Origin: Flavobacterium celericrescens
GTDB lineage: Bacteria > Bacteroidota > Bacteroidia > Flavobacteriales > Flavobacteriaceae
Direction of reading: 5' to 3'
Length of the DNA stretch: 64,000 bases
Assembly: GCF_011392075.1 (NCBI RefSeq)
Contig: NZ_JAAJBV010000003.1
Coordinates: forward strand, 248,001-312,000
The notes under the pieces were generated by a model. It was given only the letters and a program-made list of their open reading frames with translations, did no database searches and was not told the origin of the DNA. The position numbers and the translations under genes were made by a program. Numbering within the stretch: the first letter of the stretch is position 1; each line of letters begins with the position of its first letter. Positions 29,925-64,000 of the stretch are shown here, one piece after another.

Positions 29925-29985
29925 AAACTTTAACAAAATGTACAGAAAATCTGTAATGCAGTGTGATGAAGATAGTTTACATTTG
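29925..29985 (+). promoter_or_regulatory. Promoter with 35-base shared element, copy 1
   Basis: Bases 29925-29959 are identical to 63659-63693. The element contains the palindrome TACAGAAAATCTGTA (29941-29955) followed by ATGC. Eighteen bases later comes the -7 box TACATTTG (29978-29985), the same spacing as in copy 2. A normal TTG -33 box is missing, so the palindrome may recruit an activator. The gene starts 25 bases after the box. Confidence 0.7.
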
Positions 29986-30010: not shown

Positions 30011-31489
30011 ATGAAGCAAAAATTCTTAAAAAACTCCCTACTATTATTCCTAATTGGAATGATTATTGCGTCTTGTTCGTTAGAAGAAGATTACTCCAAT
30101 AGTAATTCTTATCAAAACAAAGTAAAAATTATGCACAAAAGTTTTAATGATTTACTAAAAGACCAAAAGTTCAGTAAAGCTTACAACAAAGTGCAAGCTC
30201 AAAAAAACAATGCCGCTAAAACGGTTATGGAAGAACAATATCAGTTTACAATTGCTGATAAACCCGTTAAAATTGTTCAATCAGAAAACGGAACAACCTA
30301 TACCCTTTTGATTAACAGAACTATTGATGATGCTAACACATTTGAAAACCTAGTAATTAAATATGAAAACGATGGTAGTATCAATGCTACAATTATCAAT
30401 TATCAGCCGTTTTATCCATTAAATACTATGAATTATTTTACTGGTACTGCATTTAATGGTTTGCAATCTGTTACACCTATTGTGTATAACGATGCATTAG
30501 TGAGTACAACAGGAAAAATATCATCAGATTGCTATTCAGTTTGTACGATACTTTGCCATGATTTAACAGAGAGTGGCCCTTATTCTGTGCCACATCCGCC
30601 AGGGTCTTCTTGCACAGGAAACAATGTAACCATTGATTGTGTGGTAACATGTTGGGGCGACAACATAGGTGGAGAAGATGCAGGAAATGACATTGGCACA
30701 GCAGACAACACCTCTGGTGGCGGAACAGATAGTTCTAACAATTCTGGAAGTGTTTCAACCCCTCCAAATAATTGTGGAAACTGCAATAACCCTATAGAAA
30801 CAGCTCCTGTTTTAGAGTTGGATGAGGAGGAAGAAGAAATTGACCCTTGTACAGATTTGAAAAATAAATTTGTCTCAAATAGAGAAAACATAAAACCAAT
30901 AATAGATTCTTTAAAAACATTTTTAAATGAACCTGATGAAAGAAGCGTTTCTTTTAAAATAACAAGAGTAATAGATCAGCCTGATAATTACGAACATTTA
31001 TGGGAAGTTGGAAATGGTAATACGGCTCCAGTAAGTTTTGGAAGATTTTGGTATGGTTCCATACATACCCACCCTTTTGGATCTGACACAATGTTTTCTT
31101 GGCAAGATGTCGATAATTTACTCAGTCTTTATCAGGGAGCAACAGCCAGAAACAAAGGGCTTGTTTTTAATATGATTGTAAGTTCAAATGGAGATGTATA
31201 TTGTATTAAGGTTGATAATATTGTAAAACTGAAACTTCAAATTGAAAACGACTGGAATATTCCCGAATTGGCAGATTGTGATGATAGTGAAAAAAACGCC
31301 GCATTACTTGAAATGATGCAAGAAGTATATTCATCGGATTCAAATAGCGAAAGAGCTTTTTTGAAAAAATTTTCAAACTATGGTGTTTCATTATATAAAG
31401 CAGATAGTACGTTGACTAATTGGTCCAAATTATCACTAACTGAACCTGTTTCTGCCAACTCCATTGTAAATAATTCACCTTGTAACTAA
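30011..31489 (+). CDS. Lipoprotein with JAMM-like metallopeptidase motif
   Basis: 492 residues. The lipobox IASC (Cys22) is followed by acidic residues (SLEEDYSN), a surface-export type start. Residues about 170-220 are cysteine-rich, and about 225-280 form a Gly/Ser/Asn-rich linker ending in an acidic run. The C-terminal domain (280-492) contains HTHPFGSD followed by FSWQDVDNL, i.e. H-x-H-P-x7-S-x2-D like JAMM/MPN peptidases. That arrangement (anchor, linker, C-terminal enzyme domain) resembles polymorphic effectors. Three paralogous small secreted genes follow. Enzyme activity is inference. Confidence 0.75.
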   Translation: MKQKFLKNSLLLFLIGMIIASCSLEEDYSNSNSYQNKVKIMHKSFNDLLKDQKFSKAYNKVQAQKNNAAKTVMEEQYQFTIADKPVKIVQSENGTTYTLLINRTIDDANTFENLVIKYENDGSINATIINYQPFYPLNTMNYFTGTAFNGLQSVTPIVYNDALVSTTGKISSDCYSVCTILCHDLTESGPYSVPHPPGSSCTGNNVTIDCVVTCWGDNIGGEDAGNDIGTADNTSGGGTDSSNNSGSVSTPPNNCGNCNNPIETAPVLELDEEEEEIDPCTDLKNKFVSNRENIKPIIDSLKTFLNEPDERSVSFKITRVIDQPDNYEHLWEVGNGNTAPVSFGRFWYGSIHTHPFGSDTMFSWQDVDNLLSLYQGATARNKGLVFNMIVSSNGDVYCIKVDNIVKLKLQIENDWNIPELADCDDSEKNAALLEMMQEVYSSDSNSERAFLKKFSNYGVSLYKADSTLTNWSKLSLTEPVSANSIVNNSPCN

Positions 31490-31500
31490 AAAAATAAATT

Positions 31501-32100
31501 ATGAAAAAAATAATAACACTTTTACTTTTGTTAAACTTTTGTATAATTAATGCTCAAACTCCTATTATTAATTTGGAAGATAAAGATGGTTCAAGATTAA
31601 ATGGAGCCTATTATAAAGATATAGATAGTGTCTTTAATAACTATGAAGGTGTTTGGGAATATTCAAATGGTTTGGACACGTTAAAAATTGAATTACGCAA
31701 AATAACATTCCAATTTTTAGGTAGGTATTATGAAGATGTTTTGGTTGGAGAAATAAAATATGTAAAAAATGGTGTTGAAAAAGCAAATACATTATCAGAA
31801 ATAAATGCAAATTATGGAAAAGAAAAAAGACATACAATTTCTGGTAATACTATACTTACTTCTCCACAAAGATTGAACTGTACAGATTGTGCACCAGGGG
31901 AAAAAAGGGTATATCTAGGTTTTAAAGATCCAAATCCTTCTATAGGTAGGGCTGGGTACATTATTTTCAAAAAAACAACAGTAGCAAATCAAGAAGCTAT
32001 AAAAATATTTATAGGATATGCTGGTGTAAGAAAAAGAGATGGTGAAATAATTCCAGAAACTACAATTCCGTATGGTTGGTACACTTTAATTAAACAATAA
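31501..32100 (+). CDS. Secreted paralogous protein 1 (DUF6705-like)
   Basis: 199 residues with a signal peptide (ending INAQ). The mature start has LNGAYYKDIDSVFNNYEGVWEY, a pattern shared with the next two genes: G-x-Y-x-KD, about ten residues, W-E/Q, then an N-x3-T segment, x-L-x-K, and Y-x-D-x-L-x-G. I recall this as the DUF6705 family of flavobacteria. The fold looks like a small beta barrel. It starts 11 bases after the JAMM-like gene and a terminator follows it. Confidence 0.8.
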   Translation: MKKIITLLLLLNFCIINAQTPIINLEDKDGSRLNGAYYKDIDSVFNNYEGVWEYSNGLDTLKIELRKITFQFLGRYYEDVLVGEIKYVKNGVEKANTLSEINANYGKEKRHTISGNTILTSPQRLNCTDCAPGEKRVYLGFKDPNPSIGRAGYIIFKKTTVANQEAIKIFIGYAGVRKRDGEIIPETTIPYGWYTLIKQ

Positions 32101-32105
32101 TCCAT

Positions 32106-32150
32106 ACAACAACGACTTTTAAATTATAAAAATCGTTGTTGTCTTTTTTT
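32106..32150 (+). terminator. Terminator between paralogues 1 and 2
   Basis: Stem ACAACAACGA (32106-32115) / TCGTTGTTGT (32133-32142), then CTTTTTTT. The T run passes directly into GTACATTTATGTT and the next ATG. Confidence 0.85.
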
Positions 32151-32163
32151 GTACATTTATGTT

Positions 32164-32748
32164 ATGATAAAAAAATTGAAAATAATTATTTTACTCTTGC
32201 TTTCTATTGGTTGCAAAGCACAAAGCACTTATCCTTTATCTAATTTTCAACAGAAACATTTAAAGAATAATAATTACATAAAAGATACTGAACACGTTTA
32301 TGACAATTTTGTGGGTACTTGGCAATGGACAAATGGTACTTCAACTTTTACTATCAAACTTCAAAAAGTAGAATACTGGAAAGCACCAAATGATAATTAT
32401 TATTCAGATTTAATACTTGGGGGATATCGTTATGAAGAAAACGGAAATGTATTAGTTGATAAGCTAAATTTTACAACCAGTTTTACAATTGACCCAGCAA
32501 CTTGGGTTGATTTTGCCCAAATGCAAGGAGGTGTTTCATATCCTGACATAAATGAATTGGGTATGATTGTAAACGATTACATCAAAAACAAAAGCTGTAT
32601 GGCTGAGTTAACTTTGCAAATAGGTCCTAATGGCGAACAACAGCTACAATGGTATTTGCATGATTTTGAAACATACAGAAACCCGAGCTTAGGTCCAAAA
32701 CCATTAGACTTTTCAATCCCTACAAATGTAGTACTAACAAAACTGTAA
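32164..32748 (+). CDS. Secreted paralogous protein 2 (DUF6705-like)
   Basis: 194 residues from ATG 32164. Signal peptide 1-21 (a cysteine at about 17 could make it a lipoprotein). The family core is seen as NNNYIKDTEHVYDNFVGTWQW, then TFTIKLQKVEYW and NNYYSDLILGGY. It has diverged strongly from paralogue 1 outside this core. It has its own upstream terminator/start module, so it may be transcribed separately. Function unknown. Confidence 0.8.
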   Translation: MIKKLKIIILLLLSIGCKAQSTYPLSNFQQKHLKNNNYIKDTEHVYDNFVGTWQWTNGTSTFTIKLQKVEYWKAPNDNYYSDLILGGYRYEENGNVLVDKLNFTTSFTIDPATWVDFAQMQGGVSYPDINELGMIVNDYIKNKSCMAELTLQIGPNGEQQLQWYLHDFETYRNPSLGPKPLDFSIPTNVVLTKL

Positions 32749-32756
32749 AATTTTCA

Positions 32757-32795
32757 ACAACGGCTTTTACAATTCTAAAAGTCGTTGTTTTTTTG
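32757..32795 (+). terminator. Terminator between paralogues 2 and 3
   Basis: Stem ACAACGGCTTTT (32757-32768) / AAAAGTCGTTGT (32777-32788) with one G-T pair, then a T run that leads into the same GTACATTTATGTT and ATG as before paralogue 2. Confidence 0.85.
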
Positions 32796-32807
32796 TACAT
32801 TTATGTT

Positions 32808-33392
32808 ATGATAAAAAACACACTTAAAATATTATCGCTTTTATTATTTACAGTAAATGTAAATTGCCAAGTAACTATGATTGTACCACTATCTAGCATA
32901 GAAAGTGATTATGCAAATGGGGTTTACATGAAAGACTTAGACAATGAACTACCTTTTTATGTAGATACTTGGGAGGGTGTTTTAAACAACAAAAAATATA
33001 CTTTTGAATTTGTAAAATTTACACAGCATTTGTTTCAATATGAGTCTGGAGGTGATTATAGCTACAGCGATATGTTAAAAGGTAAATTCAAGGTGGTTGA
33101 TTTAGCTACAGGTATAACTCTTTATGATAATTTAGCAGCAACTGATTATGAGGATTATACTATTTTCTTAACTTCTCTTCAATCTGGCGGTTCTTTTTCA
33201 TACGTAGACGCTCAAAATTGTTATAATACTGCTGATTTTCAACTTTATAAAGTATCAGGAAATCCAAATCAACTGCATTACAATCAATTTAGACTAATAA
33301 GTTATGCGTACTTTTTTGATTGCCCATATGAAAATCAGGAGGACATACCTATGTTTCTACCAACCGGAGATTTAATATTAACTAGACAATAA
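32808..33392 (+). CDS. Secreted paralogous protein 3 (DUF6705-like)
   Basis: 194 residues from ATG 32808, signal peptide ending VNCQ. The core reads NGVYMKDLDNELPFYVDTWEG, TFEFVKFTQHLF and DYSYSDMLKGKF, aligned with paralogues 1 and 2. Cysteines in the C-terminal half differ between the three. A terminator follows. Duplication and divergence next to a possible effector resembles an immunity array, but nothing proves that role. Confidence 0.8.
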   Translation: MIKNTLKILSLLLFTVNVNCQVTMIVPLSSIESDYANGVYMKDLDNELPFYVDTWEGVLNNKKYTFEFVKFTQHLFQYESGGDYSYSDMLKGKFKVVDLATGITLYDNLAATDYEDYTIFLTSLQSGGSFSYVDAQNCYNTADFQLYKVSGNPNQLHYNQFRLISYAYFFDCPYENQEDIPMFLPTGDLILTRQ

Positions 33393-63422: not shown

Positions 63423-63441
63423 TTTATCGTTGCATTAGTAC

Positions 63442-63528
63442 CTCTGGCATACCTCTAGCATACTTCTGGCATACACTCGCCATACACTCCGCATACACTC
63501 TTGATACACTAGGCATACACTCGCCTAC
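63442..63528 (+). repeat. Array of 11-base units ending CATAC
   Basis: Seven consecutive 11-base units such as CTCTGGCATAC, TTCTGGCATAC and ACTCCGCATAC, plus a partial eighth. The last five bases are nearly constant; the first six vary. The unit equals about one helical turn. Confidence 0.88.
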
Positions 63529-63556
63529 TTTTTTTGTGCCGAAATGTTAAAGCCTC

Positions 63557-63658: not shown

Positions 63659-63719
63659 AAACTTTAACAAAATGTACAGAAAATCTGTAATGCGGTTTTG
63701 GAGCGGTTTTTTATATTTG
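63659..63719 (+). promoter_or_regulatory. Promoter with 35-base shared element, copy 2
   Basis: Bases 63659-63693 are identical to 29925-29959, including TACAGAAAATCTGTA and ATGC. Eighteen bases later is TATATTTG (63712-63719), the -7 box, at the same distance as in copy 1. The gene starts 83 bases after the box. Confidence 0.7.
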
Positions 63720-63802: not shown

Positions 63803-64000
63803 ATGGATGCATCAAAATTACTTCATGTATTAAACGATCTTAGCGAAACTGACGAAAGTTATATTCAAGAGCTAATTCAAAACTTAAAAAGTTATATTCG
63901 CAATAATAATAGTGACGAAATTACAAATACAATTCAAGAAATAAAAAATGAAATTAAACTTTCTACAATTGAAAAGTATAATAAAAGTGATTTCGAAATT
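63803..64000 (+). CDS. N-terminal part of an unknown protein, 3' end outside window
   Basis: 66 residues from ATG 63803, open to the end. MDASKLLHVLNDLSETDESY starts a helical, hydrophilic segment rich in Asn, Lys, Ile and Glu, without a signal peptide. No family is recognised. The long control region in front and the promoter element shared with the JAMM-like lipoprotein locus suggest tight regulation. Confidence 0.65.
   Translation, partial: MDASKLLHVLNDLSETDESYIQELIQNLKSYIRNNNSDEITNTIQEIKNEIKLSTIEKYNKSDFEI

Follow-up and report, generated by a model that had tools for sequence, protein, structure and literature searches.

Nine promoter-associated copies of an inverted repeat in Flavobacterium celericrescens and their proposed link to a two-component system with candidate peptide signals

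The DNA analysed here, referred to as the window, is a stretch of 64,000 nucleotides of Flavobacterium celericrescens (G000:C3:248001-312000) from a genome of 2.80 Mb in 38 contigs. Within the window are two short sites, 29925-29959 and 63659-63693, that are identical over exactly 35 bases, with the first flanking base on each side differing, and at both of which a TAnATTTG box begins exactly 18 bases past the 35-mer (Table 1). These features had been read correctly in the original prediction, as had the absence from both sites of a TTG at the -33 distance (by eye); site 2 does have a TTG 11 bases before its -7 box, which is too close (by eye). In the Bacteroidota, where promoters are numbered by -7 and -33 elements, TAnnTTTG is the ordinary -7 box consensus. 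The 35-mer contains a TTAAC box and a dyad, TACAGAAAATCTGTA, and a search of the window that allowed up to two mismatches finds the dyad in these two places only (chance expectation 0.44). Counted from the -7 box, the dyad would be centred near -42 with its right arm over the -33 position. A location of about -42, overlapping -33, is where class II activators sit. Upstream of site 2 there is also an imperfect 11-base tandem repeat (CATACACTCGC / TACCTCTGGCA) at 63439-63530.

Table 1. Features of the two window sites, of the signalling cassette and of the genes behind the nine genomic copies of the dyad.
Feature	Position	Strand	Remarks
TTAAC box, site 1	29930..29934	+	From sequence; starts 11 bases upstream of the dyad (N6 between)
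Dyad TACAGAAAATCTGTA, site 1	29941..29955	+	Proposed response-regulator operator, from sequence and from genome-wide and cassette counts
-7 box TACATTTG, site 1	29978..29985	+	Separated from the dyad by 22 bases
First downstream gene, site 1 (492-aa lipoprotein)	30011..31489	+	JAMM-like HTHP..S..D stretch by eye
DUF6705 protein, 199 aa	31501..32100	+	Profile match
Exported protein, 194 aa	32164..32748	+	Resembles preceding DUF6705 gene in start and size (L201:10165-10749)
Exported protein, 194 aa, third in row	32808..33392	+	L201:10809-11393
TTAAC box, site 2	63664..63668	+	From sequence
Dyad TACAGAAAATCTGTA, site 2	63675..63689	+	Window and genome search
-7 box TATATTTG, site 2	63712..63719	+	From sequence; same distance from 35-mer as at site 1
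First downstream gene, site 2 (372 aa)	63803..64000, continues past window end	+	L202:7804-8922
Cassette gene 1, 76-aa lipoprotein precursor			Ends PYVIIVKKD; follows first site
Cassette gene 2, 59-aa exported precursor			Ends PIIIVKKD
Cassette gene 3, 668-aa kinase			Lipobox, TPRs, HisKA_3, HATPase; one hydrophobic span near residue 413
Cassette gene 4, 224-aa response regulator			REC; followed by second site, then 74-aa membrane protein
Regulon 1, precursor operon	contig C1		
Regulon 2, 74-aa membrane protein	contig C1		Behind the cassette's second site
Regulon 3, M43 lipoprotein			PF05572 metalloprotease
Regulon 4, 125-aa protein in row with 526-aa ATPase			HATPase_c_3
Regulon 5, 283-aa exported TPR protein			
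Regulon 6, 66-aa lipoprotein			
Regulon 7, window JAMM-like lipoprotein and DUF6705 operon			Site 1
Regulon 8, window 372-aa protein			Site 2
Regulon 9, 138-aa protein			

The JAMM-like lipoprotein behind site 1 matches nothing in Pfam, NCBIfam or PADLOC at E <= 0.01, and its gene is probably on the same transcript as the DUF6705 gene. Three exported proteins of similar size are encoded in a row behind the lipoprotein (31501-33392), and a repeated 31-mer precedes the second and third of them (32144-32174 and 32788-32818). At E <= 0.01 neither Pfam nor PADLOC assigns the protein behind site 2 to a family.

Across the whole genome the exact dyad occurs nine times, there are no one-mismatch copies, and the 13 two-mismatch copies are at chance level since the reversed control, with no exact match, also gives 13 in all at up to two mismatches. 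All nine exact copies are intergenic and oriented toward the next called gene, and all fit the arrangement TTAAC-N6-dyad-N22-TANNTTT with zero mismatches, such that the inverted repeat holds one fixed place relative to the -7 box. Given per-position frequencies in the window of 0.0048 for TAnnTTT starts and 0.0014 for TTAAC, nine out of nine at a single spacing is not chance. What stays constant among the copies is the set of TTAAC, dyad and -7 elements. The -7 box ends in G in seven copies and in A in two (by eye), and the flanks and the 22-base spacer vary. A longer 31-mer with an ATGC end, earlier taken to be part of the element, is present at both window sites but in only five of the nine genomic copies.

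Nine exact 15-mers with no one-mismatch relative resemble a young repeat, and the element might in principle be a mobile, MITE- or REP-like sequence that carries a promoter by chance. Such a repeat would not be expected to change its flanks and its 22-base spacer from copy to copy, to lie between genes and point at one in nine cases of nine, or to be replaced in other species by another dyad within an identical arrangement, and the idea is regarded as extremely improbable. The genome search for copies inside genes or without a -7 box, proposed with the original prediction, returned none among the nine, and the dispersed-repeat reading was rejected on the intergenic position, the fixed distance to the -7 box and the lack of one-mismatch copies. 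Readings of the dyad as LexA/SOS-like, CopY/BlaI-like or AraC-type were dropped once the gene cassette described below had been found.

The exact dyad, followed by A and by a -7 box 17-24 bases on, is found in 7 of 398 Flavobacterium genomes. Among 84,980 named species genomes, a set that may leave out records of the window's own genome, the dyad with a -7 box at 21-23 bases gives 22 stretches, all of them from Flavobacterium or Flavobacteriaceae/Flavobacteria except for one from Chryseobacterium. The bare 15-mer also occurs in at least 120 stretches of viral contigs, which were judged to be chance matches and dropped.

With nine oriented intergenic promoters, the original idea of a dedicated activator site that defines a regulon is upheld, and the candidate activator is a regulator of the NarL/RcsB type. 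The further expectation of a secreted or defence regulon holds in part: at six of the nine sites the first gene seems, by eye, to encode an exported or membrane-bound protein, but defence appears in only one relative, where the SIR2 gene behind a site matches PADLOC PDC-S25 at 2e-152. PADLOC returned no convincing match for five proteins behind the sites of the window genome, and a weak match to GajB (E 0.0017) for a sixth, the protein of 138 aa.

The candidate activator comes from a four-gene cassette on contig C1 (L196) that is flanked by two of the nine copies. The same gene order with two sites each is found in G012 (L207) and G254 (L238), and G149 has one site at its cassette. Orthologues of the regulator at E <= 1e-62 are present at 53 places in 50 of 249 genomes of the genus; 46 of these places were analysed and seven left out. 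For 14 regulators no kinase was called in the surrounding stretch examined. In five cases (L242, L244, L245, L248 and L250) a second regulator-like protein of about 240-330 aa, starting YIIIDDD.. or similar, adjoins the cassette.

Sites at the cassettes were accepted by a fixed rule that ignores the letter at dyad position 4 and requires a -7 box at 21-23 bases; only regulators of at least 45% identity were counted, and L308 was dropped for its two overlapping matches on opposite strands. This gave 50 accepted sites in 38 of 48 cassettes, with none accepted in the other ten (L243, L284, L298, L301, L302, L306, L308, L310, L315 and L320). The distance from the dyad to the -7 box is 22 bases in 32 of the accepted sites, 23 in 16 and 21 in two. 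TTAAC stands at the conserved distance in 40 of the 50, counting the window genome together with its relatives, and is absent from ten, including all four sites of G012 and G254. At the sites of these two genomes (L029, L031-L035, L238) TTAAC gives way to a second, CAGnAAACACTG-like dyad some 25 bases upstream, which perhaps serves a second regulator dimer. Accepted sites lie behind the regulator gene in 34 of the 38 cassettes and precede precursor or kinase genes in 16 (in L242 a kinase without a called precursor); the other 22 have none in that position. Autoinduction depends on an operator before the precursor operon, an arrangement seen at L196 of the window genome and in 16 of the 38 cassettes, and is claimed for these only.

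The regulator itself combines a REC domain (PF00072), in which the acidic pocket residues D12, D13, D64 and K121 are invariant, with a C-terminal part that has no Pfam HTH match at E <= 0.01 but which is modelled as helices at 163-173, 178-185, 189-203 and 211-220 (AlphaFold, mean pLDDT 91). A REC domain followed by a helical HTH is the arrangement of the NarL/FixJ class, which includes NarL, RcsB and LiaR/VraR, and the best PDB sequence match is NarL (1a04, E 1.6e-11), while the best fold is RcsB (E 9e-12), with RcsB-DNA complexes among the nearest folds. Unlike that class, the regulator has a fixed KRK after a variable residue and escapes the Pfam HTH models. This KRK (194-196) is invariant among 27 aligned orthologues, and the variable helix residue before it, residue 193, is one which by hand alignment we take to correspond to NarL Lys188, a base-contacting residue.

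The identity of this residue is matched by the operator. In the cassettes, D in the helix goes with A at arm position 4 in 24 of 24 cases, N with A in the single case, and E with G in 13 of 13, a covariation that extends over all 38 cassettes with an accepted site, though on the receiver-domain tree D/E and A/G both change once, with weak support (11), and the 38 matches are therefore not 38 independent events. Beyond the cassettes, the pattern TTAAC-N6-TACRSWWWWWSYGTA-N22-TANNTTT, with at most two mismatches and either A or G at arm position 4, finds 91 sites in 19 of 25 genomes (nine E, nine D and one N) against one in the reversed control, and none in G012, G254, G213, G178, G095 and G240. 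Outside the cassettes, where sites inside one genome are not independent of each other, GG is found at 36 of the 37 sites of E genomes, and the remaining one, in G219, pairs A in one arm with G in the other. The 29 sites of D genomes comprise 27 with AA, two with a mixed A/G pair and none with GG. A further form, TACAC, is present at each of the nine sites in G225, G203 and G047 as well as at the one site of G163; the regulators of G225 and G203 have D with K three residues before (read off the helix) and that of G047 has N. The sole further joint change of residue and dyad is that of L291 (N, TACAC). Among more distant E-type regulators, TACGG..CCGTA lies upstream of the regulator gene in L246, L247, L251 and L252, and TGCGGG..CCCGTA in L249; the other distant regulators examined alongside these have no clear dyad. 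The distant E-type regulators extend the pattern but are no independent switches. In G375 the two types occur together, one regulator having D and another E (L244).

Promoters of the M43 metalloprotease gene can be compared in the same way. From 41 matches 30 were taken as loci, of which five were dropped when the script found no start. The promoter dyad is TACAG in the D genomes G000, G012 and G254, TGCAG..CTACA in the D genomes G213, G082 and G202, which is also the dyad of their cassettes, and TACGG in the E genome G219; 18 of the 25 readable M43 promoters have no convincing site.

On comparative grounds, the assignment of the dyad as the putative operator of this regulator is strong. What could be set against it is that another transcription factor binds the dyad and also controls the cassette, which is conceivable in that the D/E-A/G link represents one evolutionary change. 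With such a factor, however, there would be no reason for the dyad to shift with the recognition-helix residue of the regulator, both in the cassettes and genome-wide, or for a site to be found at the cassette itself in 38 of 48 cases, and this alternative is considered improbable. The same match bears on the other half of the original prediction, a dedicated alternative sigma factor of the ECF type, for which the lack of a TTG at the -33 distance at either window site would speak. The -7 box is an ordinary TAnnTTTG, the operator is symmetric, and the dyad varies in step with the recognition helix of a response regulator; a sigma-factor site is therefore less likely than an activator site, and is given next to no credence.

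The kinase is a lipobox-bearing protein whose first 400 residues are modelled as a helical TPR solenoid (mean pLDDT 91). The closest structural neighbours are LGN and Pins in complex with partners; next, among the 50 nearest, come NprR and Rap proteins (with CSF, Phr* and phage pheromones). Ligands of TPR folds are of many kinds and solenoids are generic, so that the likeness counts as support for peptide sensing and not as proof. RRNPP receptors such as Rap and NprR share the TPR superhelix with the kinase, but are cytoplasmic and take imported peptide, whereas here the TPR part is predicted to lie outside the membrane and is joined to a kinase. The closest named relative is FimS of Porphyromonas gingivalis, described in an excerpt of PMC11053733 as a TPR histidine kinase with a periplasmic sensor that together with FimR activates a gene set, its signal being unknown. 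Residues 59-211 of the present kinase are matched by the FimS model of NCBIfam (NF053520; E 8e-7), but the score of 27.7 bits is far below the cutoff of 600 bits set for that family. A precursor gene beside FimS is another feature that the same excerpt does not mention (PMC11053733).

Candidate precursor genes accompany most of the kinases studied here. By a regular-expression test, 58 of 71 cassettes, that of the window genome included, have a small exported ORF in the 1 kb preceding the kinase gene, a neighbourhood typical of peptide quorum-sensing systems; several extra small ORFs in this count look spurious, and of the 13 kinases without one by script, L244 and L250 have one by eye. Some of the precursors contain internal repeats: four of VDLVGGASAGGNKK (L245), three of IDGGGSAGGGRKQD (L248), five like EIGGRSQVPSF (L250), seven like SEIGGNGITR (L310), five like IGGNGGNETRK (L305), four like IGGQESRGSRR (L317, L318) and three like TGGGVDERDTEATTF (L342). 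Others come as gene triplets, with the ends ..TDPIIIPKKD (L284), ..TDPIVKPKRD (L286) and ..YTDGNGVER (L337). Genomes of the same clade as the window genome encode two dissimilar precursors whose likeness is largely confined to their ends, which follow P-I/V/L-x-x-x-K-K/R/N-D. The shared C-termini and the repeats point to a mature signal that consists of the C-terminal residues or the repeat unit. Several copies of a mature peptide within one exported precursor are also the hallmark of yeast alpha-factor, to which the present precursors, with several presumed copies each, are similar in design but unrelated in sequence.

A different role for the small proteins would leave operator and regulator as they are, with the kinase sensing envelope stress or some other ligand and the small proteins acting as accessory lipoproteins, inhibitors or chaperones. 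A lipobox, seen by eye in many precursors, would tether them; 13 of 71 kinases have no small exported ORF by script; an accepted site precedes precursor or kinase in only 16 of 38 cassettes; and FimS, the nearest named TPR kinase of the Bacteroidota, has no known signal in the excerpt of PMC11053733. Set against this, identical internal repeats and tandem gene copies typify peptide signals, not folded inhibitors, and the same applies to unlike precursor pairs in one genome that share mainly their last residues. This accessory role for the small proteins is a minority possibility, unlikely but of more weight than the alternatives above.

The probable explanation is that the sites belong to a peptide-pheromone two-component system, the regulator of which activates these promoters from about -42. 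In this scheme the lipoprotein TPR kinase would phosphorylate the neighbouring 224-aa NarL/RcsB-type regulator (G000:C1), which would then bind the dyad as a dimer centred at about -42, with the right arm standing in for the missing -33 element, and recruit the housekeeping polymerase to TAnnTTTG in the manner of a class II activator. Short peptides would be cut from the C-termini, or the internal repeats, of the exported precursors encoded just upstream in the same operon, and would be released to be sensed by the extracytoplasmic TPR solenoid. In the window genome, where the precursor operon has the same operator, this would form an autoinducing loop, that is, peptide quorum sensing, and the output would include the signalling operon, the M43 metalloprotease, the JAMM-like lipoprotein/DUF6705 operon and further proteins. 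The phosphorelay, DNA binding and peptide sensing are proposed from what is known of the protein families and from the covariation. We know of no route for a peptide over the outer membrane.

Signals of Gram-positive two-component quorum-sensing systems are peptides, according to PMC8895600. A keyword search of the open-licence PMC literature (preprints excluded) gave no peptide-pheromone system of the Bacteroidota among the matches listed, and the 15-mer dyad was not found in the literature searched. ComD, AgrC and ComP are peptide-sensing kinases of Gram-positive bacteria with a multi-pass membrane sensor domain. The present system is like theirs in having precursor, kinase and regulator together and, in the window genome, an operator before the precursor operon, but differs in its Gram-negative host and in its sensor, a TPR solenoid that follows a lipobox.

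Homologues of the regulator (E <= 1e-38) extend to 69 of 149 genomes of the family, representing 68 of 148 genera. Twenty of these places were examined, with at least 49 left out; all 20 have a kinase upstream and are E-type by eye, 19 have a small exported ORF by script, and 11 have a perfect TACGG or TGCGG dyad. Three further perfect TAC/TGC dyads without GG are found at L323, L325 and L334. That these places share a widespread Flavobacteriaceae peptide language, in which an exported peptide, a TPR kinase, a regulator and a small regulon are joined by a readable operator code, is on balance plausible. In this reading precursors would often hold several copies of the peptide, and the regulon would consist of secreted proteases, lipoproteins and exchangeable cargo genes, anti-phage genes among them in some cases; the whole would be a class of peptide-pheromone quorum sensing in the Bacteroidota. 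If so, synthetic peptides derived from genome sequences could be used to test density-dependent control directly in bacteria that are very common in the environment and on hosts. With the operator code, the regulon of each species could also be read from its sequence; secreted proteases would be among its members, as would, for one relative, a candidate phage-defence gene. Furthermore, it would provide a first hypothesis for the ligands of the TPR histidine kinases of the phylum, for instance FimS.

A number of smaller observations concern other genomes. At L349, L352 and L362 a site is followed by a gene for an exported protein that, by eye, resembles a secreted metalloprotease, and at L369 and L370 by one for an orphan small lipoprotein. 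At L005/L199, L054, L057, L059 and L065 terminator-like hairpins of similar form, each with a site after it, precede a different gene in each genome, these being genes for an exported TPR protein, for proteins of 376, 124 and 250 aa and for the SIR2 protein (PDC-S25); the hairpin with its site is perhaps an exchangeable cargo slot under the operator. Sites in G375 or its counterpart PMG_227 (L048, L050, L052, L061) have a AGACCTAACAAATCT...AGATTTGTTA hairpin soon after the -7 box. At L050 and L052 no clear gene follows the hairpin, and these sites may drive short RNAs or adjoin REP-like repeats. An AraC-like gene lies behind one G375 site (L045/L069), and in G225 a TACAC site stands about 120 bases before a RecA-like gene, so named by eye (L371).
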